From an uncultured Actinobacillus sp. (GTDB taxonomy: Bacteria; Pseudomonadota; Gammaproteobacteria; Enterobacterales; Pasteurellaceae), in the NCBI RefSeq assembly GCF_945915845.1, contig NZ_CAMEFX010000002.1, forward strand, positions 1 to 64,000: DNA of 64,000 nucleotides, read 5' to 3'. The notes beneath the pieces are model-generated. The model was not told the DNA's origin. It saw nothing but the letters and a program-made list of their open reading frames with translations, and ran no database searches. Positions 61 through 266 of this stretch are shown piece by piece (position 1 is the stretch's first letter; each line of letters starts with the position of its first letter). The translations under genes were made by a program, and so were the position numbers.

Positions 61-266
61 CTTGTTGATGTTTTGAGGCTGTAAAATCACCAATAAGTGT
101 TTATTTAATATCCCAGCATGGCAGAGCCATACCGGGTTACGCATAAATCAGCCCCTTTGGGGCTGAGAATTAGAGTGGCAAAGCCACTCAACTATGCGTA
201 ACCTAGTACGCATTTTGCGTGCTAGGTATAAAATAGTATATTTTATAAGCATAAAACATCAACAAG
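61..266. repeat. MITE-like or structured-RNA palindromic element
   Basis: This non-coding stretch is bounded by a perfect 14-bp inverted repeat, CTTGTTGATGTTTT at 61-74 and its complement at 253-266. Inside lie four consecutive hairpins: 112-136 (imperfect), 148-155/159-166 (TCAGCCCC), 173-179/183-189 (GAGTGGC) and 202-212/216-226 (one G-T pair). An 11-bp pair, GGTTACGCATA at 135-145 with 193-203, encloses the second and third hairpins and competes with the ends of the first and fourth. No open reading frame, transposase or clear target-site duplication is visible. It could be a miniature inverted-repeat element or a structured RNA. The bases at 1-60 and 267-351 show no gene. Confidence 0.6.

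Follow-up and report, generated by a model that had tools for sequence, protein, structure and literature searches.

The window analysed here is a stretch of 64,000 nucleotides from an uncultured Actinobacillus sp. of the Pasteurellaceae (assembly GCF_945915845.1, contig NZ_CAMEFX010000002.1, positions 1 to 64,000, forward strand). Near its start it carries a 216 bp palindromic element, which lies between genes, downstream of uvrB (end at 390, minus strand). We consider that this is probably a non-autonomous mobile element of two layers: a core without tnpA that resembles a REPIN (a pair of inverted repetitive extragenic palindromes, REPs), nested in a miniature inverted-repeat transposable element (MITE) that duplicates TA. 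The whole element inserts with duplication of a TA target, and its interior is made of two inverted units with covarying stems. Since tnpA genes of IS200-like transposases of subclass 1.2 are bracketed by these same units, oriented alike, the core looks like a tnpA locus minus its gene. A note made earlier from the sequence had placed the element at 61–266; its 14-bp ends were borne out, and its limits were not, as homology and empty sites give 56–271 (58–269 plus one TA on each side), with 61–266 lying inside. The features are as follows, HP1 and HP2 being the two hairpins of a unit.

56–271, no strand: whole mobile element, from full-length homology of several copies and single-TA empty sites of three other copies.
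56–57 and 270–271, no strand: TA at the element ends, one of the two being the target duplication.
58–87, plus strand: left outer terminal inverted repeat, GAACTTGTTGATGTTTT..., with its perfect 14-bp part at 61–74.
112–165, plus strand: unit A, forward (HP1 112–136, linker TTACGCATA 137–145, HP2 149–165).
173–226, minus strand: unit B, inverted copy (HP2 173–189, linker TATGCGTAA 193–201, HP1 202–226).
227–247, no strand: AT-rich hairpin TATAAAATAGTATATTTTATA in the right outer arm, from folding; kept in close copies.
240–269, minus strand: right outer terminal inverted repeat, with its perfect 14-bp part at 253–266.

The perfect 14-bp inverted ends, 61–74 (CTTGTTGATGTTTT) and 253–266 (AAAACATCAACAAG), form the core of 27-nt arms (61–87 and 240–266) that are 81% complementary. 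The outer end sequence is given as TARRGCTTGTTGATGTTTT with TAGGGTCTGTTGATCTTTT as an alternative; the left terminal repeat reads TARRRCTTGTTGATGTTTT in other genera, and TAGGGTCTGTTGATCTTTT forms the ends of the Testudinibacter copies. The inner 11-bp pair (135–145, GGTTACGCATA; 193–203, TATGCGTAACC) and the hairpins of the earlier note are also present, and the pair does overlap hairpins 1 and 4, the G/C bases of their feet being common to both. The competing folds that it pointed out follow automatically from the linker being present twice in inverted orientation: the two linkers can pair with one another, or the HP1 hairpins can both form in full. The earlier note saw no reading frame in the region, and none of at least 60 aa is present, the first such frame beginning at 350. 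The minimum free energy of the RNA fold is −89.2 kcal/mol, compared with −44.3 ± 4.1 kcal/mol for shuffled sequences (z = −11.0), and DNA folding parameters give z = −10.0 against shuffles, which puts the structure far outside chance.

The host genome (G000; 2.2 Mb, 85 contigs) contains 14 matches to the element, five of them full length and about eight partial. The other four full-length copies are 94–99% identical to the window copy. The element is multicopy in pig-associated and other Pasteurellaceae, both in genomes of the same genus and in other genera; exact matches to the unit were found in A. porcinus, A. indolicus, Testudinibacter, Glaesserella, Mannheimia and Caviibacterium, and one copy is carried by a Glaesserella parasuis plasmid. 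A search of a phage collection gave no match to the element. Copies in A. indolicus are 90–91% identical to the window copy, while the sampled hslU coding stretch is 86% identical; this contrast, drawn from one short gene piece, hints at possible lateral spread. Composites bearing the outer repeats, 213–224 bp long, are found again in the window genus, G029, G025, A. indolicus and Testudinibacter; a distribution over several genera points to an old family, not to one accidental event.

For the outer layer, the two flanks of a copy were joined with one TA and uninterrupted alleles were sought. Single-TA alleles were obtained for three copies: L010, whose empty site (G000:C12) has nearly identical flanks; L026, whose site is empty in G001 and, less cleanly, in an allele of G000; and L002, inserted into a repeated IS-like end of which uninterrupted versions occur elsewhere. 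Because the whole unit has inserted with TA duplication at three empty sites, the outer element is a MITE, as the earlier note had proposed from its size and ends, and it is also short, non-coding and multicopy with terminal inverted repeats. The insertion target is mostly YTAR (flanking pattern Y-TA-R). IS630 elements duplicate a TA target, and TA duplication with a YTAR-type preference is shared with IS630-derived MITEs. The outer layer would presumably be moved in trans by a cut-and-paste DDE transposase.

In the interior a 54-nt unit of the form HP1–TTANGCATA–HP2 occurs twice, the two copies being inverted relative to each other. Both copies match the R1 covariance model, unit A with 59.5 bits (E = 1.2e-13) and unit B with 68.3 bits (E = 6.3e-16), and folding supports the hairpins of unit B. 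In an alignment of 30 diverse units, HP1 measures 18–25 nt and HP2 about 15–19 nt. Stem cells are paired in 93.3% of cases (68.1% when shuffled) and double changes number 119 (33 when shuffled), occurring in 13 of the 16 stem pairs; the covariation score is 0.642, compared with 0.166 for shuffled and at most 0.097 for slid alignments. Position 6/20 of HP1 holds a non-standard pair in 17 of the 30 units, with C opposite A, which is a G–T wobble on the other strand; in HP1 of unit B the C.A mismatch lies on the minus strand and the wobble on the plus strand. The hairpin foot is TATGNNTAA (TATGCGTAA in the window) and is not the 5′ GT[AG]G foot of REPs. As in REPs and REPINs, the units are dispersed, intergenic, imperfect palindromes that occur in inverted pairs.

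Core-only pairs and single units without outer repeats also exist. All 42 of the candidates scored in G000 matched, as did all 42 in G004, which gives at least 42 units in each (scoring stopped at 42 candidates per genome, and counts are lower bounds), as against about five full composites in G000. Linker control patterns other than shuf1 gave 0–1 matches, shuf1 being an invalid control in that it is a near reverse complement of the real linker. At the orthologous sites L208 and L212, G098 has one unit and A. indolicus two, a single-unit gain or loss. At L197, L202, L204 and L209, flank combinations at related places differ between species, which suggests that recombination between two core-only pairs deleted or exchanged the intervening DNA in different species. 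Elsewhere, a copy of the element at about 1608–1650 of L012 (G031:C1) breaks off and is followed by GTAGGGTGGGCATCCTTGCCCACC, a sequence similar to the canonical GTAG REP that has been published for Haemophilus, and positions 1–1400 of L055 (G028:C46) hold an array of half-units (CCGGGCACGGCGAAGCCGTACCCGG–TTACGCATA–HP2) mixed with another palindrome, TAGGGGCGTATTGCATACGCCCCTA.

The tnpA genes, located by PF01797 searches and inspection, encode proteins of about 150 aa. A unit lies immediately upstream of the gene and an inverted unit downstream. With the R1 model, 23 of 30 Pasteurellaceae tnpA loci have units on both sides, six have one on one side and one has none adjacent; among 26 control loci of other Y1 transposases there was one weak, non-adjacent match and no close unit. 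Some tnpA flanks served to train R1, but for 20 of the 23 loci with units on both sides the genome contributed no tnpA flanks to the training. Among 140 genomes of the family, 81 have units and 46 have a TnpA of the subclass 1.2 type; units occur in all 46 TnpA-positive genomes and in 35 of the 94 TnpA-negative ones (Fisher p = 5e-15, uncorrected for phylogeny). The units thus flank a cognate Y1 transposase gene, which, as described for subclass 1.2, has a low copy number (1–3 per genome). The proteins pass the NCBIfam IS200/IS605 model NF033573, their closest solved relatives by sequence are Y1-type transposases, and the motif Y---Q--HH (the subclass 1.2 signature) together with HUH is present at all 27 loci where the motif was read. 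A classic REP-associated tyrosine transposase (RAYT) was rejected as the partner: four proteins tested against NF047646 scored at most 27.1 bits (cut-off 80). Some tnpA genes occupy the same place in different genera, in the his operon or between hslV and hslU, a fixity that resembles RAYT-like vertical inheritance. On a Bernardetia plasmid (L282, 420–600, by eye) a hairpin that is repeated, gcgttgctctgcaac/gttgcagagcaac, lies upstream of a related tnpA, so that the Bacteroidetes relatives may possess units of their own.

We infer that TnpA would bind the folded single strand of a unit, with HP1 and the neighbouring linker guiding the choice of strand and cut site, and that it would copy or move units and so spread core-only copies. 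One core may have been captured early inside a TA-duplicating MITE, after which the composite would have spread by its outer ends.

Several results weigh against this two-layer model. The counts that associate units with TnpA take no account of phylogeny, and some unit-rich genomes (such as G025, with 40 units) have no detectable TnpA of the subclass 1.2 type, so present-day mobilization is not established everywhere. The fixed position of tnpA in the his and hslVU regions of several genera means that these genes may no longer move themselves. A precise empty site for a core-only copy was not obtained, the relatives compared being too diverged to define the junction, and the same applied to tnpA loci. 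No transposase with the outer ends was found, other DDE families not having been searched: PF13358 (DDE_3, IS630-type) was detected in 0 of 10 genomes, leaving a relation to IS630 unsupported, and loci with PF01609 (DDE_Tnp_1) were rejected as the source of the outer ends as they lack matching ends. Pattern searches for the outer ends gave short elements or chance singles only, and with the pattern GCTTGTTGATGTTTT no pair at IS-like spacing occurred among the matches listed for the 140 genomes. Single matches to the outer-end pattern were discarded as transposase ends, being coding or chance.

A simpler explanation is that the 216 bp move by the outer repeats only, through an IS630-like DDE transposase, with the internal palindromes as passengers and the likeness to tnpA flanks left from an old insertion. 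The TA duplications at three sites and the composite kept at 213–224 bp in several genera make it clear that the outer layer moves the whole unit. We nevertheless think it unlikely that this is the full account, in that units outnumber composites, often stand without outer repeats and still covary in their stems. Still less probable is a structured RNA or transcript-level element (a terminator, mRNA stabilizer or small RNA) kept for the host, its copies having spread secondarily. The very stable fold, the compensatory changes and the intergenic position downstream of uvrB would all suit such a role, yet Rfam gave sub-threshold matches only and no family at its gathering score, the TA-duplicating insertions lie at unrelated sites and the units specifically border tnpA. 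The earlier note had left the interior open between a stable RNA and a recombination or regulatory site; the evidence favours transposase-associated palindromic units over an RNA gene, and after transcription the units may have a side role as RNA, as REP elements can. That the structure arose by chance or decay and was never mobile accords only with the degenerate state of some copies and can be dismissed, given a multicopy element 94–99% identical within one genome, the empty sites (which refute it) and a fold z of −11.

Other repeats were seen near the element and its copies. Just downstream of uvrB, positions 345–392 of the window form a near-perfect palindrome with a T run that contains an uptake-signal-like core and is probably the uvrB terminator. 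At 53240–53749 the window has 3.4 copies of a 159-bp sequence in tandem (87% matches), and this repeat also has a match in the DNA flanking L047, a copy of the element in G004. The left flank of another copy (L003, about 1351–1484, G000:C21) holds a further dispersed repeat, about 134 bp long (query 303–436), with more than 20 matches listed in both G000 and G004. Its palindromes are CCTAGCACGGCTCGTGCTAGG, GAGCCGC/GCGGCTC and CAGCCCC/GGGGCTG, with differing linkers, and it is apparently another REP-like family.

Beyond the window, we lean towards a wider proposal: that IS200-like transposases of subclass 1.2 have a REP system of their own, a RAYT-independent class of REPINs found across the Pasteurellaceae, whose non-GTAG two-hairpin units they would recognize and disseminate, with one version packaged in a MITE. 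If so, a second branch of the HUH superfamily has undergone REP-like domestication, and two unrelated transposition chemistries could each move one and the same small element. The results suggest that the units are the partner of a poorly understood family of single-strand transposases; they offer a concrete candidate substrate, in which natural variants mark the important positions (the conserved linker, the C.A mismatch and the covarying stems). The nested composite is itself an unusual case of a single-strand-transposase element inside a TA-duplicating MITE.

In the open-access literature (subscription papers being outside the coverage) no description matching the element was found. By anatomy and insertion it is a MITE without a known autonomous parent. 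The IS630-derived MITEs Correia/NEMIS and RUP, as they are cited in PMC2817692, are likewise small and non-coding with terminal inverted repeats; their ends differ, and the element here has a tnpA-associated palindrome pair as its interior and no IS630-type DDE gene in the tested genomes. With REPINs, bacterial interspersed mosaic elements (BIMEs) and REPtrons (PMC3116915, PMC2817692, PMC8266576) it shares dispersed, intergenic, inverted imperfect palindromes that also flank a low-copy Y1 HUH transposase gene. A conserved strand-asymmetric irregularity in the hairpin, a recognized feature of E. coli REPs (PMC8266576), is also common to the units. In contrast to REPIN/RAYT systems, the units have two hairpins each and lack the GT[AG]G foot, and the transposase is IS200-like (Y---Q) rather than class 2; the element is not assigned to the REPINs or REPtrons because that foot and a RAYT-class transposase were tested for and not found. 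Canonical GTAG REPs have already been described in H. parasuis and H. influenzae (PMC2817692), and their sequence differs from the units. TIRtrons, with their TIRYT transposases and terminal-inverted-repeat (TIR) families (PMC3733652), also have Y1 genes flanked by dispersed inverted repeats, some self-complementary, but with another transposase class and other repeat sequences; six Pasteurellaceae genera were looked for in the main text of that paper, and none is named there. Closest on the protein side is TnpA_Y1 subclass 1.2, defined in 2018 as low-copy IS200 relatives without IS properties, which have Y---Q--HH and generally no IS200-type terminal structures and occur mostly in Cyanobacteria and Bacteroidetes (PMC6006769). 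Described without typical terminal structures, the subclass had no known DNA partner before. The Pasteurellaceae proteins agree with it in Y---Q--HH, short length, low copy number and closeness to IS200/IS605, and differ in that conserved palindromic units, inverted and also dispersed in the genome, flank their genes.
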